Shown: in pieces, positions 2,770-23,183 of the stretch
Layout: each line of letters begins with the position of its first letter
Numbering within the stretch: the stretch's first letter is position 1
Virus record (IMG/VR): IMGVR_UViG_3300010885_040028
Location: 1 to 23,183 of that record
Length of the DNA: 23,183 bases
Direction: 5' to 3' (one strand)
Source of the DNA: a virus
Program-made: the position numbers and the translations under genes
The notes under the pieces: generated by a model
What the model saw: only the letters and a program-made list of their open reading frames with translations
Told to the model about the DNA's origin: nothing
Database searches by the model: none

Positions 2770-4959
2770 TTATTCTATTTTTTTACAACTAATATTATAT
2801 ATTATCTTTAACTTAACAGTTAAAACTTGGTCAACTACACCATCATCAGGATCTGCAACAATATTTATCTTATTACTAATTAAATCATAAGTATAACCAG
2901 TTATACCCGGAACATCTAAAACAACATCTTTTGCGGATTCCATATATGAATAATCAGATGGTACGTCAGACTTTGTATAACCTGTATAAAAATAACTTGT
3001 TGTTCCAGTATAACCGCTAGGCTGCAATTCAGCATATAATCCAAACACAGCTGAATTTAGCTCACATTTTGTGCTGAACACATCTTCATCATTATCAAAC
3101 TCTGAATATACTAAATCATTAAAACCATCGTTCAGCGTCTCAATTAGCCCAAATTTTGATAATGGTTGTTCGTTAAATAATTCAGAATCCACAATATATG
3201 TTTGATATGTTTTAAACGTTGTTGCGCAATTTATTGTAGTCTCCCTTCTTAATGAACAATTATTTGAATCAGTAATAGTTAGACTATAAGATCCGCTTGA
3301 TAACCCCGACACAACAATATTTTGTGGATTTCCTGAAATATTTTCAGACCAATTAAACGTAAATGGTGGTTCACCAGATGTAATTAATGCTTCAATAATT
3401 GCATCATTTCCATTATAACATGAAATGGGGTATAATGAAAAATCTAAATATGAACTATTTTGAATTGTAATATTTGCAAATTGTGTACAACCAAGTACAT
3501 CAACCACTCTAAGTTGATAACCCCCAACTTCAACATTATTAAATGTAACCCCAGTCAAACTTGTTCCTAAAACACTTATATTATCTCCAAGGTAATAATC
3601 ATATGGGGCTGTTGCTCCTGTTGATATATATGCAAAAATTGTTGCATTATCAGACCCACAAGTTGTTCCAGTAAATGTATAACCTAATGTGAATTTATTC
3701 TCTGTTAATATTACAACCTCTTTATCCACATAACAACCACTTGAATCTTGAACATAAGCAGTATAAGTTACACCACTTGGACTATCCCCAAATAAATTAT
3801 CAAATATATAATTACTGAAAGTTGTTGTTATTGTTGTTGTATTTCCACTAGAATCAATTAACCCATAGGTGTATGGGGGTAAACCACCAACAACAGATAA
3901 AGTGATAGCACCATCAGTTTGTGAGCATATTGAGTTAAACCCATCTATTGAAACCGAAGAAACGCCATTAACACTATCCAGACTAGTTAATATTGTATAT
4001 TCACATAATGCGGCATCTGTTACTACTATTTGATAACTACCTGAACTCAATCCACTAATAACAATATTCCTATCATAAGTTATATCATAAAATCCTGTAT
4101 TGGCTGAATAATAAAAAGGGGCTGTCCCCCCTGTTATTGTTATATCCAAAGCACCATTTGCCAAAAAACAAGTTGGTTGTGTTGGAATAATTAATGCAGT
4201 TCCCATGGTTGGGGCATCAACAATTTCAATTATTTTTGTTTTTACACAATCATTACCATCAGTAACCTCAACGGAATATGTTCCAGCTGATAAATTTGTC
4301 TTTGTACTACCAGTTGAACCATCATTCCAAAAATAGGTATAGGGTCCAGGATTCGTTTGTCCTGTTATATAAATCTTACCAGTATTCCCACTAAAACAAG
4401 GGGATGAACCAACAACATAATATCCAAAATCAAAAGGTATGGAATCATTTATTATAAAACTTTCTGTTAAACCAGAACAACCCCCAACATCCTCAATATA
4501 CAAATAATAGGTATCTGCACTTAAATTTTCAAAAATAATTAAATCAGATTTAAAAACATTATTGGATATTAATTGGTCATCCATATTATACAAATAACAA
4601 TCAGTTGTTGAAAAATAAGATGTTGTTGTTGCTGTAACAGATCCATTACTATCACCACAAGTGGTATTACTTGTTGCTGAAATTGATGCACAAACACCAC
4701 TTGATATTGGTATATTAATAAAAAACTCTAAATTATCAGTTAACGTAGAATCATTAACCCTAATACCATATGTTGTTGCAGATAAACCTGAAATGGTTAT
4801 AGGTCCTGTTATTGTAACATATGGAGTACTATCCATATAAGGATCAACAAACTCAATACTATATGGTGGCGTTCCCCCAGATAAACTGATATTAAATGCG
4901 CCTGAATTTGTATTTGAACAATCCCCTGATATGCTTAAAAAATAATCAAATGCTGCCAT
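2770..4959 (-). CDS. SprB-like repeat protein, probable phage adhesin/fibre component
   Basis: 729 residues, ATG at 4959. Residues 1 to about 577 are roughly seven divergent repeats of 70-85 residues. They carry the signature GG(T/L/E)(P/A)P(Y/F)xY, then (L)S(A/S)G(T/S)Y, then V/I-T-D, then a Cys (for example LSAGTYSVEVTDGNDC near 223-237, and ISGLSSGSYQIVVTDAALC near 301-319). This matches the SprB repeat family known from Flavobacterium gliding adhesins and other Bacteroidota surface proteins. Residues 580-729 are a different C-terminal domain without repeats. Its ATG overlaps the TAA of the 430-residue gene by one base (TAATG), which suggests translational coupling. Its place in the structural operon suggests a virion adhesin. 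The family match is from pattern recognition; the adhesin role is inferred. Confidence 0.82.
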   Translation of the reverse strand: MAAFDYFLSISGDCSNTNSGAFNISLSGGTPPYSIEFVDPYMDSTPYVTITGPITISGLSATTYGIRVNDSTLTDNLEFFINIPISSGVCASISATSNTTCGDSNGSVTATTTSYFSTTDCYLYNMDDQLISNNVFKSDLIIFENLSADTYYLYIEDVGGCSGLTESFIINDSIPFDFGYYVVGSSPCFSGNTGKIYITGQTNPGPYTYFWNDGSTGSTKTNLSAGTYSVEVTDGNDCVKTKIIEIVDAPTMGTALIIPTQPTCFLANGALDITITGGTAPFYYSANTGFYDITYDRNIVISGLSSGSYQIVVTDAALCEYTILTSLDSVNGVSSVSIDGFNSICSQTDGAITLSVVGGLPPYTYGLIDSSGNTTTITTTFSNYIFDNLFGDSPSGVTYTAYVQDSSGCYVDKEVVILTENKFTLGYTFTGTTCGSDNATIFAYISTGATAPYDYYLGDNISVLGTSLTGVTFNNVEVGGYQLRVVDVLGCTQFANITIQNSSYLDFSLYPISCYNGNDAIIEALITSGEPPFTFNWSENISGNPQNIVVSGLSSGSYSLTITDSNNCSLRRETTINCATTFKTYQTYIVDSELFNEQPLSKFGLIETLNDGFNDLVYSEFDNDEDVFSTKCELNSAVFGLYAELQPSGYTGTTSYFYTGYTKSDVPSDYSYMESAKDVVLDVPGITGYTYDLISNKINIVADPDDGVVDQVLTVKLKIIYNISCKKIE

Positions 4960-6251
4960 TATTCACAAATTAAAGTAACATCCACCCCAACATTCAATGT
5001 TAAAAGTTTGTTTATTGAAAACGAATTGTCTAATGTAAAATCTTTAAGTGTAATGGTGTTATCTATATTTGGGGTTTCATAATTTATATTATAATATTTC
5101 ATATCAGATAAAGCAGTTGTTAAATTATTATTCCATAGTTCTATATTTGGAACATCTGTATTACCAATACCATCATAGAACTTAACTTTTGAAACAATCT
5201 TATTGTCTAATATTATTTCAGTATACCAACTTGTTAATACATTGACACCAAGGCAACTATTGTCAGCATTTTCCTTTGCTGAAAGTATTGCACCGCTCAA
5301 TATATCATTAAATGATTGATTTGGCATAGCTAACAATTTAGTTCCATTTTCAACTAAAACATTCTTAAAAATAGGTGTTGTTATATATATATCAGCTTCG
5401 CCAATTGCTTCTAATGTTAATATTGAATTTGACCCAGGTTGTATATCTTTTGGATTTAAACCAACAACACAACCCAATCTTCTTTTGTATGCATATTTTT
5501 GCCTATGAAATGGTGAGTTTTCATATTTAACACCTGCCATCCATAAGGTTGTTGCTGGTATCATTTGTTCAACCAACTTAATCCAGTTGGGATTAACACC
5601 AATGCTATAATCAATTAAATTTTGATAAGTATATTTGTTTGTATCAATATTGGCTTTTTCTTTTGCTTGGATATATTTCCAGAATATTGATTGCAATGTT
5701 GGATAACCCCCTGTCTTACCATCAGTAATATACATTCTGTTCCTAACGTTAATCATGCTGCTAGAAAATGTTTCCGAAAATTCAAAGAAAGTTTTGCTTG
5801 CTGGCTTGGGATCAATAAATGTTGAATCCGTTCCTCCGGTTGTTGGATACGGATAAGTTAACCCGGATTCAGGTATGGGATAATCATATTCTCTTGACTG
5901 AACCCATACATCATAAAGCAAACCTTGTGATGGATTTATAAATAAATCAACATTCTTAACATTCAATAATAACCTTTCATCTTTTAAATTATAATAAGCA
6001 TTATAATTACCATCAGAAGAATTCCTTAATAAAACATTATTGCTATCCCAAGATTTCTTATTATCAATATATTTGTAAATGCTGAAACCCTCATCAATAA
6101 ATGGGAATTTCCTAAATTTTTCTAAATATTTTTCACCATAAGTGAAATTCTCAAACTTTGTTCCGTATTGAGCAGTAGCTCCTGACCCAATTCTTGTTTG
6201 CACTTCTAAACTCCTATGGCTAGGTGTTAATTGATACCAACCAGCACCCAT
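4959..6251 (-). CDS. Phage structural protein of unknown function (430 aa)
   Basis: 430 residues, ATG at 6251. It starts with MGAGWYQLTPSHRSLEVQTR and ends LICE. No membrane segment, signal peptide or repeat is visible. It is rich in Tyr, Asn and Phe. A central block around residues 215-260 (containing NPNWIKLVEQMIP and then WMAGVKYENSPFHRQ) looks like a folded core. It lies 30 bases after the 545-residue gene and overlaps the SprB-repeat gene by one base. I do not recognise a family. From its place between a probable wedge protein and the modular adhesins, it may be an adaptor or attachment protein of the baseplate. That is inference only. Confidence 0.8.
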   Translation of the reverse strand: MGAGWYQLTPSHRSLEVQTRIGSGATAQYGTKFENFTYGEKYLEKFRKFPFIDEGFSIYKYIDNKKSWDSNNVLLRNSSDGNYNAYYNLKDERLLLNVKNVDLFINPSQGLLYDVWVQSREYDYPIPESGLTYPYPTTGGTDSTFIDPKPASKTFFEFSETFSSSMINVRNRMYITDGKTGGYPTLQSIFWKYIQAKEKANIDTNKYTYQNLIDYSIGVNPNWIKLVEQMIPATTLWMAGVKYENSPFHRQKYAYKRRLGCVVGLNPKDIQPGSNSILTLEAIGEADIYITTPIFKNVLVENGTKLLAMPNQSFNDILSGAILSAKENADNSCLGVNVLTSWYTEIILDNKIVSKVKFYDGIGNTDVPNIELWNNNLTTALSDMKYYNINYETPNIDNTITLKDFTLDNSFSINKLLTLNVGVDVTLICE

Positions 6252-6281
6252 CTGGAAGAAGAAATCATCCGCTTCTACTGT

Positions 6282-7919
6282 TTATGGATACCCTGTATTA
6301 ACATCAACAGGATATTTTGAAACATCAAAATTAACTCTTGTTGCACTTGTATTTGCTGTAAATGCGCTATATGTAACTAAACCAAATGTGAATGTATTAT
6401 TGGTTAATATTGGGTCGTTATCAATAAAAGACCCCGTTCGTATTTTTAATAATTCTGTATTAAATTTAGTTAAATTGATTTTTTGGTCAGCTAAATATAT
6501 ATGCTCATTAAATTCAATTAAAGGTTCTGGTATACCAAATAAATTAAGAATAAATTCAATGGATCTTCTTGTTCCTTTCGATTTGAATAAATAAAATGAG
6601 TTAATAACTAAATTCCTATAAAAAGAATAACTTAATTCTAATGGTGTTTGAGACCTATTATATGCTGGATATTTAAAATCACTCTGGTTGCCAAATATTG
6701 AATTAATCAAATCATCATCTGATATGATTTGGAAATTATCAACCCAACCTAATGTCCTAGCAAGATTATAAACTAATTGTGATGGGATATCATTTTTAGG
6801 GGTATAATTTATTGAATTCATAAAAGCTAATGAATCAATAAACTTTTTAACCTCGTCAAAACTTCTGCCATATATTTGCAAAACGCTCTCCACTCTTCTA
6901 TCAAAAGTATCAAACTCTTTTATTGAATCTGAAATTAAAAATCTTGAAATTAAATTTGTTCTAACCTCATCAAAATAACCAGATTTCTCTTGCAAGTCTT
7001 CCAGATAAGCTGTAAAATTAGAACTAGATATATCTAAATTCCATATCCCATCTAGGGGGAACGTTAACGTGCTATCAACAATTACAAAATCCCCATTATT
7101 ATTTTCTTGGGGCACTTGCAAAACCATTGTATATTTTGGGTCTGTTAGCGTTGTTAGCATATATTGTTCAATCTCATCCAATTCTGTTTTTAAAATAAAA
7201 TTAAAAACAAAATCATTTGGTCTAATTATATAAGATGTTATTGATGTTGAAGATTCAAAAGGTTTACCATTTACTGCAACTTTTAATGTACCAGTATATA
7301 GACTTGATGATGGCGTTAAAAGGTTTACCTCATAGGATTTATCCCCTATATAAAGAATATAATCAGAATAATATTTAGTAATATCCCTATATTTTGAAAC
7401 CAAACCCTCATTAGCCAATAAATTGGATTGAGCATTGGTGGAAAAATCAACAAGAAAAGGGTTTTTTATTCTTTCAATATTTATATCAAATTCGGTAGTA
7501 TCATCCTCCGCATCATAAATTATGTTTGTTGCTGTAAATCCAGTATTCAAATCATTATCATAATAATTAACATCAATTGATGCTGGAAATTTATTAATAA
7601 TATTGGTTATAGCAACTGAAAATCTTTTAGATAATGAACCATATAATGAGAAATTAATAACTTGTGATATATCATAATTTGGATAAACATCCAACTCTTT
7701 TGAAATAAATTCTCTAAATCCATCAATATCATTAACACCAAGTTTTTCAAGATTAATAGGGTCTCCAAAATTATTGGTATAGAAATTACGGGGAATTCTA
7801 TCCCCTACCCTACTTGAAAATTGAAAATTACCATAGGTTAATCCCCCACCATCAAACAATTGGTTTCCAACTATATTATCAAAAATCCCTAGATTACCTG
7901 TTAAAAAAATATTTGGCAT
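6282..7919 (-). CDS. Probable baseplate protein with gpI/gp7-like 'KGTRRSIEF' segment
   Basis: 545 residues, ATG at 7919, overlapping the TAA of the 297-residue gene by one base. The C-terminal third has features typical of phage baseplate proteins of the P2 gpI / T4 gp7 type. These are an amphipathic helical region (about 337-395, with DRRVESVLQIYGRSFDEV), then FYLFKSKGTRRSIEFILNLF near 441-460, followed by Gly-Ile-Pro-Glu-Pro. In gpI-like proteins a KGT-S-(I/V)-E segment before a short Leu/Gly stretch is common. The N-terminal 330 residues are not recognised and look beta-rich. If correct, it would complete the gp25, gp6 and gp7/gpI wedge set. The match is short and weak, so only the general call of baseplate or tail protein is reasonably firm. 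Confidence 0.55.
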   Translation of the reverse strand: MPNIFLTGNLGIFDNIVGNQLFDGGGLTYGNFQFSSRVGDRIPRNFYTNNFGDPINLEKLGVNDIDGFREFISKELDVYPNYDISQVINFSLYGSLSKRFSVAITNIINKFPASIDVNYYDNDLNTGFTATNIIYDAEDDTTEFDINIERIKNPFLVDFSTNAQSNLLANEGLVSKYRDITKYYSDYILYIGDKSYEVNLLTPSSSLYTGTLKVAVNGKPFESSTSITSYIIRPNDFVFNFILKTELDEIEQYMLTTLTDPKYTMVLQVPQENNNGDFVIVDSTLTFPLDGIWNLDISSSNFTAYLEDLQEKSGYFDEVRTNLISRFLISDSIKEFDTFDRRVESVLQIYGRSFDEVKKFIDSLAFMNSINYTPKNDIPSQLVYNLARTLGWVDNFQIISDDDLINSIFGNQSDFKYPAYNRSQTPLELSYSFYRNLVINSFYLFKSKGTRRSIEFILNLFGIPEPLIEFNEHIYLADQKINLTKFNTELLKIRTGSFIDNDPILTNNTFTFGLVTYSAFTANTSATRVNFDVSKYPVDVNTGYP

Positions 7920-10471: not shown

Positions 10472-11785
10472 TTAAATTTTTACACATCTAATAGAATATC
10501 CATTATTTTTATTATCACACCCAGCATTATTGAAATCATTATTATTATAATTAACATTTGAATGTGATTTTAAACCAGGTAAACAAAGACCACCTGAACT
10601 CTGCCAGTAGAAAGCCTTTTCACCCTCTTTCTCAAAATTACCTTTATAATCCCTACTTCCAACAGGTATTGCATTAAATTTGGAACTGTTATTCGCATCA
10701 GTATTTGGGGCATCCCACCATGTTGTTCCACTTATTTTGATTTCACCTCCTGAATTTGCACCACCAAGGTAATTCTTTAATGTTGTGAAATCTTGATAAC
10801 TAGGAACTTTATATCCAGTTGGGCAAACACCCCTTACATCAGTTGCAACAAACCAATTATATAATGGACCAAAACAAGCTGATGTATTGTTATAATAAGA
10901 ATATGCGCCAATTGTGGCATTTTTCCATAGAGTTGTATCTGTAATGTTAGGAATAACACTACCATCATTATAACTTGTGGTCATTAAGTTTTCTTTAAGC
11001 CAAGTTTGTGTACCAATATTAACTGTACTATAATAATTAGACATAACATCTTGAACAAGAGAACCACTACATGCCGTAATTTCTTTAATCACACCCAAAT
11101 ATATTTCAACAACAACGCTCTCAATAGAATTAACATACCAACCATCTTCTAATTTAGTATAAATACCACCAGATAAGGTATATAAAGAATCATTTACTCT
11201 GGCGGTTTGTGGCGTTCTTTGTGTTGTCACATATACCCCAATACACTCACCATTGCAACCATAATTGTTTGTACCACAGAATGTTTGTGAACAAGCACTT
11301 TCTTTGCTATTAAATTTGAACCAAGTTCCACAACCACCAGAAGGTGATCCGCCAGCAAAAATGGTGATTGGGCAAGTTTCTTTAAATAATTTTAAGTTTG
11401 TAACACCATAATAATTAAGTAAAGGTGAACTTGCTGTTGGCGTAACTGTCCTTGTTGGTGTAACAGTATTAGTTGGCGTTGGAGTTACTGACGCTTGATT
11501 TGTAGGCGTTACAGTAGGAGTTACAGACATAGTAGGAGTTACCGTTTGAGTTGGGGTTGTAGTCATAGTAGGAGTTGGCGTTGGTGATGCAGCAATAGCA
11601 CCCTTATGCTGAAATCGAACAATTTCATAATCAACAATATTATTTACCGCATCATTTAAAACAACATCCTCATATTTAGAAATAGAATCATCTACCCCTA
11701 AATTATCAAAATTAATATTAACTGGTAGTTTTATTGTAATATCAGTAATAGTAGGTTGAATTAACCTATATTTATTCACACTCAT
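10472..11785 (-). CDS. PT-linker protein with C-terminal FISUMP (Fib_succ_major) domain, probable receptor-binding protein
   Basis: 437 residues from ATG at 11785. A TTG one codon upstream (11788) would add a single Met, and I prefer the ATG. Residues 1-66 are an N-terminal anchor-like region. Residues 67-117 are a PT-rich linker. Residues about 120-245 are a domain with several cysteines. Residues about 249-437 match the FISUMP family, a C-type-lectin-like fold: VNIGTQTWLKENL, then G-LYNWF, CPTGYKVPS, LGG, WW, N-S-KFNAIPVGSRD, and a C-terminal GYSIRCVKI. The start overlaps the end of the 553-residue gene by 14 bases, pointing to coupling. FISUMP domains are abundant in Fibrobacter and Bacteroidota secreted proteins. 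Placed at the C-terminus of a tail-operon protein behind a flexible linker, it is a good candidate for receptor binding. The last 35 residues are very Asn-rich. Confidence 0.85.
   Translation of the reverse strand: MSVNKYRLIQPTITDITIKLPVNINFDNLGVDDSISKYEDVVLNDAVNNIVDYEIVRFQHKGAIAASPTPTPTMTTTPTQTVTPTMSVTPTVTPTNQASVTPTPTNTVTPTRTVTPTASSPLLNYYGVTNLKLFKETCPITIFAGGSPSGGCGTWFKFNSKESACSQTFCGTNNYGCNGECIGVYVTTQRTPQTARVNDSLYTLSGGIYTKLEDGWYVNSIESVVVEIYLGVIKEITACSGSLVQDVMSNYYSTVNIGTQTWLKENLMTTSYNDGSVIPNITDTTLWKNATIGAYSYYNNTSACFGPLYNWFVATDVRGVCPTGYKVPSYQDFTTLKNYLGGANSGGEIKISGTTWWDAPNTDANNSSKFNAIPVGSRDYKGNFEKEGEKAFYWQSSGGLCLPGLKSHSNVNYNNNDFNNAGCDNKNNGYSIRCVKI
11435..11587 (-). repeat. PT-linker repeat
   Basis: This encodes about 51 residues of TPTPTMTTTPTQTV and similar units in the FISUMP-domain gene. 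It includes the [15 protein letters not shown] variant that resembles the linker of the 347-residue gene about 9 kb away. Confidence 0.8.
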
Positions 11786-13433
11786 CAATAATGGGTTTTA
11801 TTATAGTATCACTTCCAATATTCATAGAATCGTTAAAGAAATCATAACCCCCAACATCTGGAAATAATTTAAATAACGCATTGGTAAATGGATAAAAAGT
11901 ATTGTTTATAAATGGATAATTAACCCCATTTGATGTTTCATCAAAAAAACCAACATTATAAATATCCCTCCATCTATAACCGCCATCAAATTTTAAATAA
12001 AAAGCATAATTAGGTAAGTTTACCACAGATAACTTAGTATTTGTTGTTTCAACATAGTTAGAAAAAACCTTTAAAACCATTTTATTATGTGGTTTGTAAT
12101 AATAGCCATACTTATCATTGTTAAATTTATCTAATTTAAAGATATTAGATGAATGCTTTAATTTATAATGAAATTCTGAAACAACCCTTTCTTGTTGATC
12201 ATATTGATTATATTCGCAAAAATCACCATCAAACTCACTAGGATGTTTATAATAGAAAAACTCTTTGTTTTGAGCATCAAAATATGATGAAGGTAAAACA
12301 TTGCTATTTGATTTTGGATTGCTTTTATCCCACCAGGAATCAACCCCCTCTCTTATATTAAAAGACCATCCTTGTTTCATGCTTTCACCTCTATTTGCAA
12401 AAAAACCAGAATAACCTTTAAAAACCATTGTTAAGAAAATTTCAGTTATTGGTCTATTCTTGTTATCCAATAAACCCTCAATGTCCATCTCATTCTCAAC
12501 ACTAAAATTATAAGAAAAATTGGAACTCTTCTTCATTAATAAGGGGTTATTATTATAATAACTTTCAACATATTTACCATCAAGAACCCCAACTTGAAAG
12601 CCTGATTTTGTAACAATAACTTTATCACCCCCCTCAATTACCTTATGTTGCCTAATATAATATGTTGATGTTGTTTCAAGCGCATTATTATCAATAACAA
12701 CTCGTTTCAATGTTCCAACAACATTAGATGGAATCTCATTAGCAGTATTAAAAATATTTACAATATTCTTATCTGAATTAAAACTATTATCACCAAATGA
12801 ATATACCTTATAAAGTTTTTCAACCCCAGCTATTTTAATTAAAATGCTTTCATTCTCATTTAAATTATGATATAACCCACAAATTATTCTAACCAAATTG
12901 AAACCATTGATAATAACGTGTTCTGTTATAAATGGAATACCATCTTTTACCTTCCAATTAATTTCTTTATTCTTTATATTAATTGATAAATCTTTTTCAT
13001 AATCTTCTTTATATGGGTATGTAATATATGCACCCCAATTATATGTATAAGCACTCACGCTCTCATAACCAAAACTATTTGGTTTTGTTCCTCTGAAAAT
13101 ATCAAACTCATAGGATTGTAACAACCCTTTTTCAGTACCCTCACTCTGAATATTTAATGTTGATTGTAGGGGATATATTAAATCATCCTTATATTTACTA
13201 CTTGTTGACCCAGAATATATATTGTTATAAACATAATTAACATTGAAAACAGGTCTGATTTTAAATGACTTGTTTTTTTCGCTAATATATAAATCCCTTA
13301 AATCAATTGTTGATGATTTATCATACTCAATCAAATCTTTTGATGTTGATGATAAATCAATCTGGATTTGGGGGTCCACCTCAATTCCAAGTTTGTTTCT
13401 ATAAATGCTAGGGATAATATTAAATTTATTCAT
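11772..13433 (-). CDS. Large phage structural protein, unknown (553 aa)
   Basis: 553 residues, ATG at 13433, overlapping the end of the 1667-residue gene by 8 bases. The N-terminus is MNKFNIIPSIYRNKLGIEVD. The sequence is very rich in Asn, Tyr, Phe and Lys. A central segment, residues about 335-385, contains GYSGFFANRGESMKQGWSF, and the C-terminal part has GGYRWRDIYNVGFFDE. No repeats, membrane helix or signal peptide are visible. It ends 14 bases inside the FISUMP-domain gene. The tight overlaps on both sides suggest that it is made together with its neighbours and may carry the FISUMP protein on the virion. I do not recognise a family. Confidence 0.78.
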   Translation of the reverse strand: MNKFNIIPSIYRNKLGIEVDPQIQIDLSSTSKDLIEYDKSSTIDLRDLYISEKNKSFKIRPVFNVNYVYNNIYSGSTSSKYKDDLIYPLQSTLNIQSEGTEKGLLQSYEFDIFRGTKPNSFGYESVSAYTYNWGAYITYPYKEDYEKDLSINIKNKEINWKVKDGIPFITEHVIINGFNLVRIICGLYHNLNENESILIKIAGVEKLYKVYSFGDNSFNSDKNIVNIFNTANEIPSNVVGTLKRVVIDNNALETTSTYYIRQHKVIEGGDKVIVTKSGFQVGVLDGKYVESYYNNNPLLMKKSSNFSYNFSVENEMDIEGLLDNKNRPITEIFLTMVFKGYSGFFANRGESMKQGWSFNIREGVDSWWDKSNPKSNSNVLPSSYFDAQNKEFFYYKHPSEFDGDFCEYNQYDQQERVVSEFHYKLKHSSNIFKLDKFNNDKYGYYYKPHNKMVLKVFSNYVETTNTKLSVVNLPNYAFYLKFDGGYRWRDIYNVGFFDETSNGVNYPFINNTFYPFTNALFKLFPDVGGYDFFNDSMNIGSDTIIKPIIDECE

Positions 13434-16400
13434 TTAAATATTTTGTTTTAAATTTATCCAAAGCTGAAAAACCTTTCTTTATTCCAAAATAGAAATGGAA
13501 TGGTGCGCCAACAACAAAAGAATCAGATTTAGCAGATTCTTTATAATATTTGTTATCTTTTTCTGCAAAAATATAACCCCTATCATTGTTATAACTTAAA
13601 TCAAAAGATGAGTCAGAAAAATAATCTGTTGTTGTATAATTTTCTATATCTGTATTTGGTTTTATTCTTTCAAGGGATTGATATCTTTTTGATATAATAT
13701 TACTCTGATTTGTCCCCCAATCATTTTCATCATTCCCAAATATTGTTTTTGTTTTTTTTGCTAACATCCAAGAATAAAATGGAACTTCTTGCGAATTATT
13801 TCCATAATTTTGTATAACCAATGCACCTCCTTGCCTGAAATTAACTCTACCCGGGGTGATATGGTCTTTTAATTGTAAATCAGCTTGTGATGATGAGTAG
13901 AAAACACCCATAAAGTTTTTATTATTCTCTCTAAAAACAATAGTAGGGGAATTAACCTCAGTAAACGCATATATTTCTGGGGAAAATTTAACAACCCCAA
14001 ATTCAGAATTAATTGATAAAATTTGAGCTAAATCACCATCTACTTTTTTACCTAATCTACTAAAAAATGAATTAACTAATGTGTTATTTACTAAACTTTT
14101 CATCCAAACTTCTGAATCAAGAATCCTACTAACTATAAATAGATTTAATAAATCTGAATTATCATAATGACTTGTTGCATTTAAAGCATTAACAACATAC
14201 CCAAAAGTACTGAAATCATTAAATGTTCTTTCCAACCTATTCTTAACACCTAAATTAATTATTGTTGTTGGGTACATTAAATTTCGTACATTTATTGAAG
14301 TTTTAGATGGAGTAACACTACCAACAAACTTTTTAACACTTGAACTATAAGGTGAACTTCTATAATAGAAATTATTTGTTGCTCTATCATAATATGCAAT
14401 ATCCTTACAATAAATAGGATTTAACTGATTACCACCAAATTTATTTAACCTAAATGAAAACATAAATAAAGAACCGTTAACCCAGTTATTTGAAAATGTT
14501 TCAGAAATAATGCCTTGACATAATGCAAAATTTAATCTAAACCTCAACAACCATTCTCTAAACGCTTTCATATCTATGGGCAAATCAAGTATTGGTCGTT
14601 TAACTAAAACATAACAACCGTTTTTAATTTGAATTACTTTCTTATTTGGTGTTTTGCAAATATCTTTAATTTTTATTCTACCCTCTAAATCATTTTCATA
14701 ACAATCAAACGATACTAAATTAGAACAATTACTAAAAGTACTGATAACATTATCCTCATATGGCAAACCTTTTAAGTTGTTTGTTATAATACTTGAATCA
14801 AAAACTGAATTAATATATATTGGTGTTTGCTCCCCTTTGGATTTTTTAGGTATTACATATATATTAAATGCATTATTCTGTTGTAAGACACCTACACCGT
14901 TAGAATACCAAGTAGAACCATCTAATATATCCGATGTTGGTAATCTATCATTCCTTAATACAATCTTGTTTTTATTAGTTTTTTCTAATAAAGAATCTTT
15001 AAATTCCCTATGCGAACTGTAAGAATGGTACAACATATACTTATTAAACCCATTAAAGTCATTCTTATCAGTAATATTACCAACACCAACCATATATGTA
15101 CCCCCATTAAAATCTAATTTTGATAAACTATATTTTGAATCAATTAAACTATTTGGTGTAATTTTTGGAAAATTGTTTTCACCCCCAGCACGTTCACCAT
15201 TTTGTACAAAAAAGTTAATATCAATAAGTTCACGACTAGGGCTTGCTCTAAACCAATTTTTAAGGAATGTAACCAAAAAAGGTAAAACACCTAAAACCCT
15301 AATAAGAGGATTTACAATAATAGGTTTATCATTTAGAATACCAGAATAATATGAAAGAGCATCTGTTTTATATGTTTTAAATTGATTATTTGGTTCAAAT
15401 AAATATGATTCAAAAAAAACATCATCAACATTTGTTAATGTTTGAACAGTATAACTACTCCCACTTTCCTTTTCATTTAGTTTTTGTATTGGTATATTTA
15501 ATTTAGTGCTAGCTGTTATTTTAACAGCTGAATAATCATCATGCCCAAATATTTTACCCAAACCATATGTGTTTGTATATTCAGGTGAATATGGATCCAC
15601 ACCTCTTTGAAGTATTAAAACATATTTGTTATCAATATCCTGGAAATACTGAATTGGGTTATCTATAATTAATTCCTTCCCAATATCACCATCAAGTTTA
15701 ACTCTTAAAACTGTTGGTGAGGTTAATATACTTGGTAAATAACCTTTTTTTGTTTTATCAGCTACCGCAATATAATTAGAATATGTTAAACCAGTTAATA
15801 CTTGAAAATATTCAATATCTGATGGGTAATAAGATGTATTTGTAATATCCTCAACTATTGGCAATGTATATTGTGTTGATTCAAGGTCAATATCTTGTGT
15901 AACAGCATATTTTACTGTTATATTTTTATTCTGTTCATTTATTTTAATAGACCCTGGTACTCCAAAAAATGTTTCACCATTATCTGTAAGACCAGTAAAT
16001 TTAAAATTAATATCTTTTGATAACTTATTATCAACAAATGTAATTACCTCGCCTGATTTTATTTCAACATCAGATAAAACAACAATAACATTATCATAAT
16101 GATAAACAAATTTATTAACATCTAAATCACTAGCAAATGAAACCTCAATCTTATTTGCACCTGAAAAGTAATTATTCCTTAAATTAAAATAATTAATCCT
16201 CTCGCCAATAGGTAATGTTTCACTATAAATTAGCATTTTTTTATTAATTACTGGTAATTTATATTCATCAGACCTTGGCATTTTTCTATCTGTTTCACCC
16301 CCACCCCTACTATTAGCATTTTCTACTCTACCAGCAATTGCTTGAGTCATAAGTAATACAATAATATCTTTATCCTCTTCATATTTTGTATCATCAACAA

Positions 16401-18429
16401 TACCTAATATATTACTAAATGAAGACCACTTAAAATTATCTGATAAATTAGAAAAATATAGAGTTTGATTTGAAAATTGGGATAATAACCCATTAGTTTG
16501 ATAGGATTCACCTACTTCAACATCCACCTCTTCCATTTCACAGTTACAAAATTCACAATTTGGATAGGTTATACTAGGTAGATGTATAGTTTTAATCTTT
16601 CTCTTTACAAGCCTGCCAAAATTAATTATTAAAAACACTTCAAAAGCAATAAGAAAAATAAGTTTTGCATTAGTTGCAACATTTTGTGCAAATAAAACAG
16701 CAGCATAACTTGGTGCTGTGGGTACAAAAAATGCCGTTGTTAAAACATAAGCTAGAATTGTTTGTGTTTTACCCACATCTAATAAAAAATTATAAATTTG
16801 ATACCCAACCAATGTTATTATTGCTGGTAGCACTATCACCGCCAAATAATTCCACAAAAAAGTAACTAAATGATATCCAAATAATATAGGAATATAAATA
16901 AATTGAAGTAATTGCGTTATCACAGAAAATAAAAAATACATCAAACTAAAATTCTTAACCCCATCATTAACTGGGTATTTGTTAACGTTCTGCTCACAAG
17001 TTCTATCAGCAATCTCTTTTATCCCTATAAACTTACCTTGCCCAATATTGCTTTGATATTGGTCAACTAATCCTGCAACTGTATACGTTTTATTATATTC
17101 AAATTCATAAAAAGTGTCTTCACAATTAATTGCAGCATTATAATTTGTATATCCAGACCAATCCAACCCAAAATAATATGAACCAGCTAACTCTTTTTGT
17201 TTTTGAACATCCGAACTATTAATTGGATCATCAGTAACACCTCCATTAATCCAACCATATTCCTTAATATTTGGAATTAAAAAATGTGCTTTTCTTGACG
17301 TATCTGTTGTATTATCTGAATCTTGCCATTTTACCTTAAATCTATATTTACCCTTTCTTGGTATTCCTATTTTCTCATCATTCGTTATTATCTGATTTCC
17401 ATTCTCATCTGTAATAACATATTCCAAATTCATTGGTAATTCAACAACCCAAGTACCATCACCATCTATAACTCTACCAGAGTTTTGCAATTCATATTGT
17501 TCAATAATTGGTAATCCTTTTTCATCAAGATTTTTTGTTTGCCTTATTGCTAATATTTGACCCGGACCAGTTTCAAGTTGGCATAGATTACCCATACTTT
17601 CTTTAACCCCACAATCAATTCTTACACTATCCATATTGCTTGTTCCAAAGATTGACCCAATAAAAATAGCTGTTGGTTGTATATCAATACTTGCATCATC
17701 TCTTAAATCAAAATCAATTCTATTTATTGTTGAATCACAAGTTTCAGGATCCCCCCAGAGTGGAGATATTTCAACACCTTTTGATAATGAAACTATTTGT
17801 GGCAAAGAACCCAAATCTGGTGAACTTTGAAATGAATTACCCTTAAATTGAGCTTCTGTTGCTCTACCCATTCTTATCAAATCTTGGGGTGTCAATGAAA
17901 ATTCACCAATATCTGATAAATCCAAATCCATTAATACAGTATAACTTCCAACTGGAACTCCGAATATCATGTAGTCACCACTTGAATTTGTCTTTACTGT
18001 ATATTTATAATACTTTTCATACACCTCAATGGCTTGACCATTAGCCATAACATCATTTAATGTGGGAAATGTTCCCGTAGCAACATGACCAGGATAAGAT
18101 GGTTCATATGGTAATAAATTATACCTATAACCATCATCATTTTTGTCAGATATTGACTTATATGGATATATGGCTGTGATTAAATCATTATTCTCATCTT
18201 CTTCACTTAATGGAATGAAAACTGACACCCTAGCGTTTGGAACACCAAACCCATTATTTGCTGTAATCCTACCTGCAACAACACCATAATTTGCACAATC
18301 CAGAGTATAAACATCAGATTGTCTAACTTTAAAGGATAATAATTCTAAAAATTCAATATTTTGGTCTAACTGAAAATTAACAACTTTATCTTTACCTATT
18401 TCAGTCTTTATTCTATATGTGTTTTGCAT
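13426..18429 (-). CDS. Giant baseplate-operon protein with N-terminal carboxypeptidase-regulatory-like domain and central transmembrane cluster (1667 aa)
   Basis: 1667 residues, ATG at 18429. Residues about 47-170 resemble a carboxypeptidase-regulatory/transthyretin-like beta-sandwich (VVAGRITANNGFGVPNARVS, then YTVKTNSSGDYMIFGVPVGS). Residues about 491-606 are strongly hydrophobic and contain four likely membrane-type helices (around 493-515, 518-545, 556-582 and 585-605). A basic stretch follows (LVKRKIK), then a CEFCNC cluster (Cys625, 628, 630). A further short hydrophobic segment lies near residue 1043. The long C-terminal half is Asn/Tyr/Ser-rich and not recognised. No N-terminal signal peptide is visible. 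It lies directly after gp6, where a large wedge subunit would be expected in T4-like phages, but the membrane cluster does not fit gp7. It could be a virion protein that inserts into the host membrane during infection. The reading frame is certain; the role is not. Confidence 0.85.
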   Translation of the reverse strand: MQNTYRIKTEIGKDKVVNFQLDQNIEFLELLSFKVRQSDVYTLDCANYGVVAGRITANNGFGVPNARVSVFIPLSEEDENNDLITAIYPYKSISDKNDDGYRYNLLPYEPSYPGHVATGTFPTLNDVMANGQAIEVYEKYYKYTVKTNSSGDYMIFGVPVGSYTVLMDLDLSDIGEFSLTPQDLIRMGRATEAQFKGNSFQSSPDLGSLPQIVSLSKGVEISPLWGDPETCDSTINRIDFDLRDDASIDIQPTAIFIGSIFGTSNMDSVRIDCGVKESMGNLCQLETGPGQILAIRQTKNLDEKGLPIIEQYELQNSGRVIDGDGTWVVELPMNLEYVITDENGNQIITNDEKIGIPRKGKYRFKVKWQDSDNTTDTSRKAHFLIPNIKEYGWINGGVTDDPINSSDVQKQKELAGSYYFGLDWSGYTNYNAAINCEDTFYEFEYNKTYTVAGLVDQYQSNIGQGKFIGIKEIADRTCEQNVNKYPVNDGVKNFSLMYFLFSVITQLLQFIYIPILFGYHLVTFLWNYLAVIVLPAIITLVGYQIYNFLLDVGKTQTILAYVLTTAFFVPTAPSYAAVLFAQNVATNAKLIFLIAFEVFLIINFGRLVKRKIKTIHLPSITYPNCEFCNCEMEEVDVEVGESYQTNGLLSQFSNQTLYFSNLSDNFKWSSFSNILGIVDDTKYEEDKDIIVLLMTQAIAGRVENANSRGGGETDRKMPRSDEYKLPVINKKMLIYSETLPIGERINYFNLRNNYFSGANKIEVSFASDLDVNKFVYHYDNVIVVLSDVEIKSGEVITFVDNKLSKDINFKFTGLTDNGETFFGVPGSIKINEQNKNITVKYAVTQDIDLESTQYTLPIVEDITNTSYYPSDIEYFQVLTGLTYSNYIAVADKTKKGYLPSILTSPTVLRVKLDGDIGKELIIDNPIQYFQDIDNKYVLILQRGVDPYSPEYTNTYGLGKIFGHDDYSAVKITASTKLNIPIQKLNEKESGSSYTVQTLTNVDDVFFESYLFEPNNQFKTYKTDALSYYSGILNDKPIIVNPLIRVLGVLPFLVTFLKNWFRASPSRELIDINFFVQNGERAGGENNFPKITPNSLIDSKYSLSKLDFNGGTYMVGVGNITDKNDFNGFNKYMLYHSYSSHREFKDSLLEKTNKNKIVLRNDRLPTSDILDGSTWYSNGVGVLQQNNAFNIYVIPKKSKGEQTPIYINSVFDSSIITNNLKGLPYEDNVISTFSNCSNLVSFDCYENDLEGRIKIKDICKTPNKKVIQIKNGCYVLVKRPILDLPIDMKAFREWLLRFRLNFALCQGIISETFSNNWVNGSLFMFSFRLNKFGGNQLNPIYCKDIAYYDRATNNFYYRSSPYSSSVKKFVGSVTPSKTSINVRNLMYPTTIINLGVKNRLERTFNDFSTFGYVVNALNATSHYDNSDLLNLFIVSRILDSEVWMKSLVNNTLVNSFFSRLGKKVDGDLAQILSINSEFGVVKFSPEIYAFTEVNSPTIVFRENNKNFMGVFYSSSQADLQLKDHITPGRVNFRQGGALVIQNYGNNSQEVPFYSWMLAKKTKTIFGNDENDWGTNQSNIISKRYQSLERIKPNTDIENYTTTDYFSDSSFDLSYNNDRGYIFAEKDNKYYKESAKSDSFVVGAPFHFYFGIKKGFSALDKFKTKYLNE

Positions 18430-18484: not shown

Positions 18485-20320
18485 TTATCCTATTGTAACA
18501 TTACCACTAGTCTTTACTTTTACTCTAATATCAATATCAGGGTATCTTATATGATAGACTTCTGATGGTTGAGCATAAATCATTTCATCTATTGGTTTTA
18601 TTGTTTTTGTGGTTGTATTAGAATATTCCATAGATGTGAAACCCCCAGAATAATTACCCCCAACCTCATTTATTATGGTTAAATCAGATACAGTAAACAC
18701 TCCATTTAATTTTTGGATATTACTTTTTATTTCAGATAAATTAATATCTGTACCTAATTGCATGCTTTGGGGTGAGAAATAAAGATTAATCGCAGAAATA
18801 ATAGAATTGATAATATCATTTGAATTAAAGTTAGCTGCAATTATAACAGAACAATCCACACTAACATCAATTATTGTGGCTGATTTAACAACTATATAAT
18901 CATTTATCATCCTATAATTTGATAAATAATTTGCAATATTATTGGTTAATATATTTGAAATTGTATTTGTTAATCTTCCATTTGAATCAAATGATAATAC
19001 AAGAACCTCAATCTTATTATCCACCTCTTGCACAGAAACCTTTGCAGGTGAACCAAATTCAGATGGCATATTCCTAATAATTGATTCATAATCTCTTATT
19101 GTTACTGCACGTTTTTGTGCTGCAAAATTATAAGAAACAAAGTTTCTAACCTCTTCAATAGTTGGTAATCCAGCACCCCCAATGGCAGGAAAAGCATTAT
19201 TAACCCTTAATGAATTAATAACTGCTGTTTTTTGCGCTTCATTGCCATTATTAACCTTAAAAATGTTTACCCCAATTTGATTTATTGTATTAACACCTAA
19301 ATTGCTATTCTGCCCCCCACCAACTCTATATTGTATAAAAATGGTTGAATTTGGTTTTAATGTTCTACCTAATGAAAAGTTATTTAAATAATTTTGAATG
19401 GTAGGATAATGATTCGTTGTCGTAAATAAATTCAATTGTTCTAGTGCTGTATTAACACCATTACCAAAAGTTATCTTCTTAAAACCCTCTGGGGTATATT
19501 CAGTTATAAACCTATTATCTGTTTGTATATACTTACCAACTTTAATACCAGCATTACCTGTATTTTTTGTTGTATCAGGAATGAAAATCCGATCCTCAGC
19601 CAATGAATCAACTTCATACCACTTACTATCAGAATCACCAATAAACTCCGCATTAGGGGGAACTGTTGATATTTGACCATCTTTTGCAATTACACTAGTT
19701 ATACCAAGAACATTTTTCTCCGGTAAAAATATTTCCAAAAAAGGTCTAACGTCAGAAGATGTAATAACTCTTTTAAAAACTTTTGTAGCACCATTTATTA
19801 CTGGTTCTTGCTTTACAATAGTATAATTAACTGTTTGACCATTTATTATATTTGGTATAACTTTCCTATTCTTAACACCTTGTGAACTAAAATCTTGCGT
19901 AAAATTAATATCATTAATTGTTTCAAATACAACCCCAGCACCAAAAACTTGCGCACCTCTTTCAATAACACCCATATATGATGTGTCAGCATTCCTGCCA
20001 TTGACAGGCACAGTTATTGAAAAATCACATAAGGTAATTGATGGCTTTTGACCAGGTATTTTTAAACCATAAGTCTTTGCTATATTATATATTGATGATT
20101 TTTGTTGGGCATATTGCAACACCGTTTCTTGCAAACTTCTATCAATATGATAATGCAAGTTATCCGCAACCGCAGCATTTAAATCAAGAAATACTGAAAA
20201 TATTGACGCATCGTTAAAATCATTTATCAAATCCGGATAATATGTTTTAACATAATTAAGTAATTCGTTTCTTATACCCTGAAAGTCTCTAACGCCATAT
20301 GATATTTGTCTATCTGCCAT
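18485..20320 (-). CDS. gp6: Baseplate wedge protein, gp6/gpJ (Baseplate_J) family
   Basis: 611 residues, ATG at 20320, close to the 660 of T4 gp6. The N-terminus has the family pattern: DFQGIRNELLNYVKTYYPDL, then NDASIFSVFLDLNAAVADNLHYHIDRSLQE, then an alpha-helical QKSSIYNIAKTYGLKIPG block. The middle holds FGNGVN and YRVGGGQNSNLG motifs typical of gpJ-like proteins, and then an RDYESIIRNMP block. In T4 and P2 this protein dimerises around the gp7/gpI subunit to form the inner ring of the baseplate and triggers sheath contraction. It follows the gp25 gene with a single base between stop and start. This is one of the two strongest identifications in the structural region. Confidence 0.9.
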   Translation of the reverse strand: MADRQISYGVRDFQGIRNELLNYVKTYYPDLINDFNDASIFSVFLDLNAAVADNLHYHIDRSLQETVLQYAQQKSSIYNIAKTYGLKIPGQKPSITLCDFSITVPVNGRNADTSYMGVIERGAQVFGAGVVFETINDINFTQDFSSQGVKNRKVIPNIINGQTVNYTIVKQEPVINGATKVFKRVITSSDVRPFLEIFLPEKNVLGITSVIAKDGQISTVPPNAEFIGDSDSKWYEVDSLAEDRIFIPDTTKNTGNAGIKVGKYIQTDNRFITEYTPEGFKKITFGNGVNTALEQLNLFTTTNHYPTIQNYLNNFSLGRTLKPNSTIFIQYRVGGGQNSNLGVNTINQIGVNIFKVNNGNEAQKTAVINSLRVNNAFPAIGGAGLPTIEEVRNFVSYNFAAQKRAVTIRDYESIIRNMPSEFGSPAKVSVQEVDNKIEVLVLSFDSNGRLTNTISNILTNNIANYLSNYRMINDYIVVKSATIIDVSVDCSVIIAANFNSNDIINSIISAINLYFSPQSMQLGTDINLSEIKSNIQKLNGVFTVSDLTIINEVGGNYSGGFTSMEYSNTTTKTIKPIDEMIYAQPSEVYHIRYPDIDIRVKVKTSGNVTIG

Positions 20321-21670: not shown

Positions 21671-23183
21671 CTACGATTCACAACTCACACACTCATTAAT
21701 ATTTCTTGCGAATGATTGTGCTGAACTCTGGCTAAACTGATAATAAAGCGTTTTAACGCCCTCCTCATGCGCATATAAATATAATTGATTTATATCCTTT
21801 GCTGGAACTGAGGGATGTATCATTAAATTTAATGATTGTGATTGGTCAATGTATTTTTGCCTCTGTGCTGCTTGTAATATCAATTCTTTTGGTGATATTT
21901 CAATAAATGATTTAAACACCTCTTTTGTGGGGAAATCCAAATGCTGAACCGATCCATCTTTTTTCAAAATACTCTCCCAGGTATCTGGCGTATTTAAACC
22001 ATACTTATCCAATTCAATTTCCAAAAATGGATTCTTATAAATTGTTTTTGATTTTGCCAAATCTTTAATAAAATAATTTGATTTTATTGGCTCAATACCC
22101 ATACTTACCTGTCCTAGAATAAATGAACTTGACTTGGTTGGGGCAATAGCAATTAGTGTTGTATTGGCATATCCCTCTCTTAAACATTCATATCCCTTTC
22201 CCTTCTCTTCATATAAATATTTTGAAGCTAATTCAGATTTTTCTTTAATTGTTTTAAATATTTGATGATTTAATTGCTTCGCCATCAAAGATTCAAATGG
22301 TATTAATTTGGATTGAAATAATGAATGATAACCCAAAACACCCAAGCCAATGGCTCTATGTTGTGATGCAAATCTATTAGCTCTTTTCATGCCAGCCATT
22401 TTATCTGACTTCAATATAAATTCATCCATAACTGCATTTAAGAACATTGTATAAACCTCAATTGCATCAGTCTCAATTATTTCATCCCAATGAAGTAAAT
22501 TCAATGAACCCAAACAACAAACAAATGAGTTAAATGAATCTGTTGGTAATTGAATTTCTGAACAATTAAAAGTCCTCAAACCATTTGATACAAAAATATG
22601 CTCATCATTATCAATAGTTGGGCAATAAACTGGTTCATTATCTAATTGTTCAATTGAAATAACTTTTGCTCTTTTTTTAGTATTATCCCTATACTCCCTA
22701 TCTTCAATAATAATATTCTTTCTTGTTAAGAACCCAGTTTTTTCTTCAATAATTAAAGCATCATTTTTACTTCCAAAAATTAATCTCCAACAATCTTTTG
22801 ATGTATAGTATTTATGACCACCTTTACCATCAGGTAATAAAGTTTCACCTTCTTTTCTTAAAAGACGAATAGAACAACTAAGACCTAAATTAGTAAATAA
22901 AATTTGTAATTCGCTTAAAAATTCTTTATTGATATCAGCATATGCAATTTGTATTGGTTCACCTTTACTATCACTCTTGAATGCTGAACCATCTGCATAT
23001 AATAAACCTTTTAAATAAGACCAAATAGTATCCTCATTTGATTGCCAAATCCAATATGGGACATAACCTTTTTCAAAATTTAATGCTTTTTTCAAAGTTC
23101 TTGATGTCAAACGCTTCTTTTTAACCAGTGATTGATTTATTTTACAATCATGAAATGTTGCTGGATTTCTATTTCTTAATCCA
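21671..23183 (-). CDS. nrdA: Ribonucleoside-diphosphate reductase large subunit, C-terminal part with intein (5' end beyond right edge)
   Basis: The frame is open to the right edge, so the gene is partial. A TTG at 23110 is internal, since the frame continues upstream through GLRNRNPATFHDC. From 22564 down to the stop are 297 extein residues, close to the 300 that follow Cys462 in E. coli NrdA. They begin CSEIQLPTDS and include FVCCLGSLNL, IGLGVLGYHSL, IAPTKSSSF, RQKYIDQSQSLN, the Tyr-Tyr pair of KTLYY (radical pathway), and a C-terminal C-x-x-C (ECVSCES) that would re-reduce the active site. The enzyme converts ribonucleotides to deoxyribonucleotides for phage DNA synthesis. Upstream of the cysteine lies an intein (separate entry). 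The gene ends at a strong terminator. The identification is firm. Confidence 0.95.
   Translation of the reverse strand, partial: GLRNRNPATFHDCKINQSLVKKKRLTSRTLKKALNFEKGYVPYWIWQSNEDTIWSYLKGLLYADGSAFKSDSKGEPIQIAYADINKEFLSELQILFTNLGLSCSIRLLRKEGETLLPDGKGGHKYYTSKDCWRLIFGSKNDALIIEEKTGFLTRKNIIIEDREYRDNTKKRAKVISIEQLDNEPVYCPTIDNDEHIFVSNGLRTFNCSEIQLPTDSFNSFVCCLGSLNLLHWDEIIETDAIEVYTMFLNAVMDEFILKSDKMAGMKRANRFASQHRAIGLGVLGYHSLFQSKLIPFESLMAKQLNHQIFKTIKEKSELASKYLYEEKGKGYECLREGYANTTLIAIAPTKSSSFILGQVSMGIEPIKSNYFIKDLAKSKTIYKNPFLEIELDKYGLNTPDTWESILKKDGSVQHLDFPTKEVFKSFIEISPKELILQAAQRQKYIDQSQSLNLMIHPSVPAKDINQLYLYAHEEGVKTLYYQFSQSSAQSFARNINECVSCES
22565..23183 (-). other. Intein (LAGLIDADG type) inserted at the Cys462-equivalent of NrdA, N-terminal part outside window
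   Basis: The sequence before the NrdA motif CSEIQLP is not reductase. It holds a homing-endonuclease motif, YLKGLLYADG (22988-23017), followed by the expected alpha/beta region. It then has the splicing blocks KVISIEQLDNEPVY and then HIFVSNGLRTFN, ending with Asn at 22565-22567 directly before the +1 Cys of the extein. The penultimate residue is Phe rather than the usual His. The N-terminal splice junction is beyond the right edge. Whether a second LAGLIDADG motif exists cannot be seen. Confidence 0.9.

Follow-up and report, generated by a model that had tools for sequence, protein, structure and literature searches.

A large protein encoded directly after gp6 marks a clade of uncultured T4-like phages and is a candidate host-membrane-engaging baseplate component

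We analyzed a 23,183-nucleotide stretch of viral DNA (the window) and found that its baseplate operon encodes a 1667-aa protein, named TMb here, which belongs to a previously undescribed family in which a hydrophobic region of the level seen in polytopic membrane proteins is conserved. From these properties we infer that TMb is a good candidate for a part of the phage that engages the host membrane. The coordinates of TMb, its segments and the neighbouring genes are collected in Table 1.

Table 1. Position of TMb, of the segments within it and of associated genes (window coordinates unless a contig is named)
Feature	Coordinates	Strand	Basis
TMb, 1667-aa clade-specific baseplate-operon protein	13426..18429	-	ORF; 133 full-length relatives from IMG/VR loci
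N-terminal beta-sandwich (CarboxypepD_reg/Cna_B-like) domains of TMb, residues ~48-368	17326..18288	-	Pfam, AlphaFold2, Foldseek
PVNDGVKNF motif (family form PVNDGVRNFDF), residues 486-494, just ahead of the hydrophobic region	16948..16974	-	
Hydrophobic helical region, residues 496-602 (helices 496-565, 573-602)	16624..16944	-	
CxxCxC motif, C625, C628, C630, directly after the K/R-rich flank	16540..16557	-	
C-terminal region, residues ~647-1667, mixed beta fold	13429..16491	-	AlphaFold2; PDB and BFVD fold searches
Second, isolated hydrophobic segment, residues 1037-1055	15265..15321	-	
Wedge protein of gp6/Baseplate_J type, 611 aa, gene immediately upstream of TMb	18485..20320	-	
gp25-like wedge protein, 158 aa	20322..20798	-	Pfam/PHROG-type matches
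g553, protein of unknown kind, start overlapping the TMb stop (ATGAATAA)	11772..13433	-	
g545 and g430, homologues of the large protein found at the gp7/tail-protein-I position in related phages	4959..7919	-	
Probable tape measure of the TMb clade	L178:5951-7798 = G003:43951-45798	-	between tube-side and large hub-side genes

The initial annotation had placed the TMb gene directly after gp6, and this position was borne out: the preceding gene is Baseplate_J/gp6-like (PF04865, E 7e-8; PHROG baseplate wedge, E 1e-21) and the gp25-like gene lies further upstream. At the other end, the overlap between the stop of TMb and the start of g553 is conserved, and this suggests translational coupling of the two genes. 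We examined 320 gp6-bearing loci, a few contigs being counted twice, and TMb stood directly after gp6 in 152 of them; in two more loci it lay further downstream or was truncated, and it was absent from 93 loci with at least 3 kb of downstream sequence. The gp6 tree split the proteins followed by TMb exactly from all others, with a support of 1.0. Judged from these sequences, TMb is an extra, clade-defining component inserted after gp25-gp6. The earlier association of TMb with the baseplate thus held in gene terms, since the gene is fixed in a contractile-tail baseplate operon and its hydrophobic stretch is conserved family-wide. Two cultured phages that encode full-length relatives of gp6, Flavobacterium phage immuto and Microcystis phage Mel-JY01, have no TMb, and neither has an uncultured phage of 484 kb; in all three, gp25-gp6 is followed by one or two smaller genes and then by a gene for a 1265-1404 aa protein. 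TMb-less phages of the immuto type encode, immediately upstream of gp25, a protein of 330-660 aa with hydrophobic stretches of its own (L081:18030-19145; L259:6153-7151; L191:5844-6851; L243:4456-6429), with Kyte-Doolittle (KD) values up to 2.36 and a 60-residue mean up to 1.3. Its annotation in immuto, 'DNA repair ATPase RecN', is probably wrong, and it may be the membrane-active tail protein of these phages.

We typed eleven long contigs bearing TMb (82-326 kb) and found a tail sheath in nine and a gp23 capsid protein in three, and with gp25 and gp6 present in the window, the TMb lineage is by gene content one of T4-like contractile phages. A sheath of 1066 aa (L178:10277-13474, minus strand) showed sheath homology over its last ~300 residues only, and at L177:12032-19558 (minus strand) the hub side includes a protein of 2509 aa. 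We also considered the moraphages, a recently described lineage of aquatic, Bacteroidota-type jumbo phages in which a lysine-tRNA ligase is common (VOG occurrence 24) (PMC12619734). This assignment was ruled out, as the ligase (PF00152) occurred in none of the eleven long contigs, including the one of 326 kb. The window carries SprB-repeat and Fib_succ_major domains, and its gp6 is similar to that of Flavobacterium phage immuto; these features are compatible with a Bacteroidota host. The SprB repeats, five in number, are in the neighbouring gene at 2770-4959, while putative fibre/adhesin proteins with long Thr/Pro repeats are encoded at 3-1688, 1696-2739 and 10472-11788 (minus strand), the last ending in the Fib_succ_major domain (E 7e-33). 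At 21671-23182 (minus strand) the window end cuts through a gene for the large subunit of a class I ribonucleotide reductase (PF02867), into which an intein-like LAGLIDADG element (PF14528, E 1.5e-6) is inserted.

Four membrane-type helices had been proposed for positions 16959-16612, which correspond exactly to TMb residues 491-606. To place this region on a scale, its mean Kyte-Doolittle hydropathy was found to be 1.51 over 60 residues and 1.32 over 116, the latter being the best 116-residue mean of the protein, while the maximum among 2000 residue shuffles was 1.00. Soluble E. coli proteins (n=29) reached at most 0.89 and 0.71 over the same lengths, and six E. coli transporters gave 1.25-1.80 and 0.81-1.49. 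The hydropathy of the TMb region is therefore comparable to that of lac permease and far over that of soluble proteins, and the shuffles together with this calibration ruled out chance hydrophobicity. The region also contains a run of 58 consecutive uncharged residues. TMb had at least 595 related loci in IMG/VR (a profile search gave 578, partly overlapping), from which 133 full-length proteins and the window protein were reduced to 67 members at <80% identity. Across the entire family the 60-residue mean ranged from 1.38 to 2.60. TM-like 19-mers were present in the aligned region of all 67 non-redundant members (mean 2.6, range 1-4) as against a mean of 0.15 such windows outside it, and only nine of the 67 had hydrophobic segments elsewhere. 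The length classes of the family share one pattern: PVNDGVRNFDF, a hydrophobic core of 47-135 residues, a K/R-rich flank and LPMxSYPDCEACxC. Most of them also conserve a K/R at about position 45 of the stretch, and the flank that follows the hydrophobic region averages 3.5 positive and 1.4 negative residues.

We modelled residues 1-700 of TMb with AlphaFold2 using the 67-row alignment, and residues 605-1667 separately. The first model (pLDDT 77.5) contained beta sandwiches at residues 48-368, followed in the hydrophobic region by a 70-residue helix (496-565) and a 30-residue helix (573-602), with low-confidence linkers at 481-494, 621-624 and 634-646 that were predicted to be disordered. The strong hydrophobic region of the initial annotation thus stood, at residues ~496-602, while its count of four crossings was not confirmed. 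A fixed four-helix topology found no support across the family, as the model has two helices and the relatives vary both in TM-like windows (one to four) and in core length. On hydropathy and this fragment model, the region is a candidate for crossing a membrane.

A strongly hydrophobic stretch could also be a buried one, and the earlier suggestion of a check for a soluble helical bundle was followed up in the same model, which predicted an extended two-helix hairpin flanked by disordered linkers and no self-contained bundle. The helices might nevertheless pack within the baseplate, against other TMb copies or partners such as g553, and never meet lipid. We scanned 15 T4 baseplate proteins as controls and found a TM-like 19-mer in gp7 (residues 886-904, KD 2.07) and another in the tape measure gp29 (237-255, KD 2.20); gp11 was marginal (KD 1.66) and the remaining proteins were below 1.4. 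The earlier statement that such a region is missing from known T4-type wedge proteins is wrong for gp7, although there it is a single segment and not ~110 residues, and the TMb region is far longer. The gp7 segment sits between Pfam domains V (766-861) and VI (920-1012), and gp7 is annotated in GenBank with the words 'C-terminus is predicted integral membrane domain'. Since structures of gp7 have been solved (5hx2, 5iv5, 5iv7) and its inter-domain segment is presumed to be packed inside the baseplate, it is a warning that hydrophobicity is no proof of membrane contact. The TMb region likewise lies between folded domains, and the conserved H520, N and P residues inside it could reflect specific packing. 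However, the 60- and 116-residue hydropathy of TMb is transporter-like and exceeds every soluble control, and the linkers flanking the helices are predicted to be disordered. In addition, the sequence drifts through the middle and second half of the stretch (column conservation 0.11-0.29 in the middle, 0.1-0.5 in the region) yet remains hydrophobic, and such free drift is typical of lipid contact rather than of specific packing. We therefore regard a purely buried interface as possible but on balance unlikely.

Outside the hydrophobic region, the N-terminal 490 residues are the best-conserved part of TMb (column conservation ~0.75). The beta-sandwich module that had been read at the N-terminus was supported by a CarboxypepD_reg match at residues 142-165 (E 3.7e-4, under the Pfam cut-off), by the predicted strands and by PDB fold matches, which were to generic Cna_B/pilin-like sandwiches with query TM-scores <0.2. 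The three CxxCxC cysteines were invariant across the 67-row alignment and may possibly form a metal or disulfide site. Residues 605-1667 were predicted to be mostly beta (pLDDT 77.7), and a fold search with this half found no match in the PDB (best E 0.12) or BFVD (best E 0.18). By sequence and profile, TMb had no match in the PDB, none in PHROGs and none in Pfam beyond the weak CarboxypepD_reg hit. A tblastn search of 50,697 phage records with the window protein and a distant relative found no cultured relative, and there was no confirmed relative in the bacterial genome contigs searched, prophages included.

The size and position of TMb recall gp7, and this identity was ruled out, because two genes elsewhere in the window, g545 and g430, match the gp7-position proteins and TMb matches none. 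The gp7 families phrog_964, Gp7_5th and Gp7_6th did not match TMb, while T4 gp7 itself matched them; hhalign gave no match between TMb and the operon genes and T4 proteins tested (<1% with T4 gp7), and gp7 structures were absent among the Foldseek matches listed for TMb. By hhalign g545 matched the 1265-1336 aa proteins at 70-89% (best blastp E 7e-10), and it is probably the gp7/tail-protein-I equivalent, on the strength of position and motif rather than of a family match. In the window the gp7-position gene, a single ~1000-aa gene in 85 of 89 relatives, is broken in two: an in-frame stop and a short gap separate g545 from g430, whose start is in the same frame. This split may be a nonsense mutation, an assembly error or a real fission.

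Membrane segments in tails are usually sought in the tape measure. A tape measure lies between the tube/sheath and hub genes, is helical and has a length that tracks tail length. TMb was ruled out as one, as it follows gp6, its flanks are mainly beta and a separate protein of 613-671 aa occupies the tape measure position. The latter was present at this length in nine of the eleven long contigs and had no PHROGs match. Its only matches among phage records were five tape measure proteins, all weak (E 0.9), and Pfam PhageMin_Tail matched it at E 0.011; its position, constant length and these weak matches make it the probable tape measure. Unusually, no TM-like segment was found in it in any of the nine contigs (maximum KD 1.28), in contrast to T4 gp29 with its segment of KD 2.20. 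In contig G003, whose tail module spans 57 kb from sheath to fibres, no protein of the module other than TMb had several strong TM-type segments. A tape measure without TM-like segments beside a TMb that has them suggests, at the sequence level, that TMb carries the membrane role, and would fit a transfer of that role to TMb. As a precedent, phage TP901-1 could no longer infect once the first hydrophobic region had been removed from its tape measure (PMC5099701).

Our preferred reading, which we hold tentatively and at somewhat below an even chance, is that TMb belongs to the baseplate, is specific to its clade and has a hydrophobic hairpin that is shielded before it enters the host envelope. 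It would be a structural baseplate component in a single large, uncultured clade of T4-like contractile phages and would dock onto the gp25/gp6 core through the conserved beta-sandwich domains at its N-terminus. The hairpin, with two helices and 2-4 crossings, would stay shielded in the virion until baseplate rearrangement on the host releases it into the envelope. Once inserted it might anchor or seal the baseplate and help to form the DNA path, so that TMb would take over the membrane role held by tape measure proteins in many other phages. Wedges of contractile phages remain at the cell surface, so a hairpin located in the wedge would meet the outer membrane first; helical proteins are unusual in that membrane. 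A channel in the inner membrane would need association of TMb with the hub or tube and is not specifically supported. A bolder form of the proposal, in which clade-specific proteins form a ring around the tail tube, their membrane-inserting hairpins replace the tape measure segment and the baseplate itself seals or opens the envelope, seems to us unlikely.

The same hairpin might instead enter the cytoplasmic membrane while TMb is being made; baseplates would then assemble there, and TMb would be left behind or carried out at lysis. The excess of positive charge in the K/R-rich flank (3.5 vs 1.4) fits the positive-inside rule, with cytoplasmic insertion and an even number of helices, and a membrane-anchored contractile system is known in the cyanobacterial tCIS (PMC8894136). 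Against such an anchor, the 1060-residue C-terminal beta region resembles a virion structural module and not an assembly factor, and the related T4-type baseplates of immuto- and Mel-type phages assemble without TMb; we consider it quite unlikely. TMb could also act in the membrane of the infected cell, for example by remodelling the envelope or in superinfection exclusion, and share no more than an operon with the tail genes. Its membrane-type segment would suit such a role, and its virion location is one that we infer. The near-invariable place after gp6, the overlap with g553, the very high N-terminal conservation and the large size all speak against this role, which we regard as highly improbable.

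How DNA passes the host membrane after tube puncture in contractile phages is poorly understood, and the TMb family points to a protein other than the tape measure. Hundreds of copies of the family were seen in metagenomes and none was found in a cultured phage, and the hairpin offers a precise deletion target. TMb is a core-looking baseplate gene that marks a whole clade yet is invisible to current family libraries. Like TMb, the T4 wedge initiator gp7 (phrog_964) is large, is encoded directly after gp6 and has a beta-sandwich N-terminus (fn3 in gp7), but gp7 has one 19-residue TM-like segment between domains where TMb has ~107 hydrophobic residues. Tape measures with TM regions, such as TP901-1 TMP and T4 gp29, have hydrophobic regions that are thought to enter the host membrane; unlike them, TMb is mostly beta, has no long coiled tape and is encoded in the wedge operon. 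In the tail knob of phi29, a podovirus, gp9 is a tail-tip protein with an inserted pore-forming hydrophobic loop that enters the membrane, and it resembles the proposed TMb in its way of working. A contractile parallel to our reading of TMb, as a baseplate-associated membrane contact, is the thylakoid-anchored CIS of Anabaena (Cis13/Cis12), in which the tail-fibre protein Cis13 supplies the anchoring TM helix (PMC8894136); there the contact is made by a trimer that resembles a tail fibre and has a single TM helix at the C-terminus, whereas in TMb it would be an internal hairpin of a 1667-aa phage protein.
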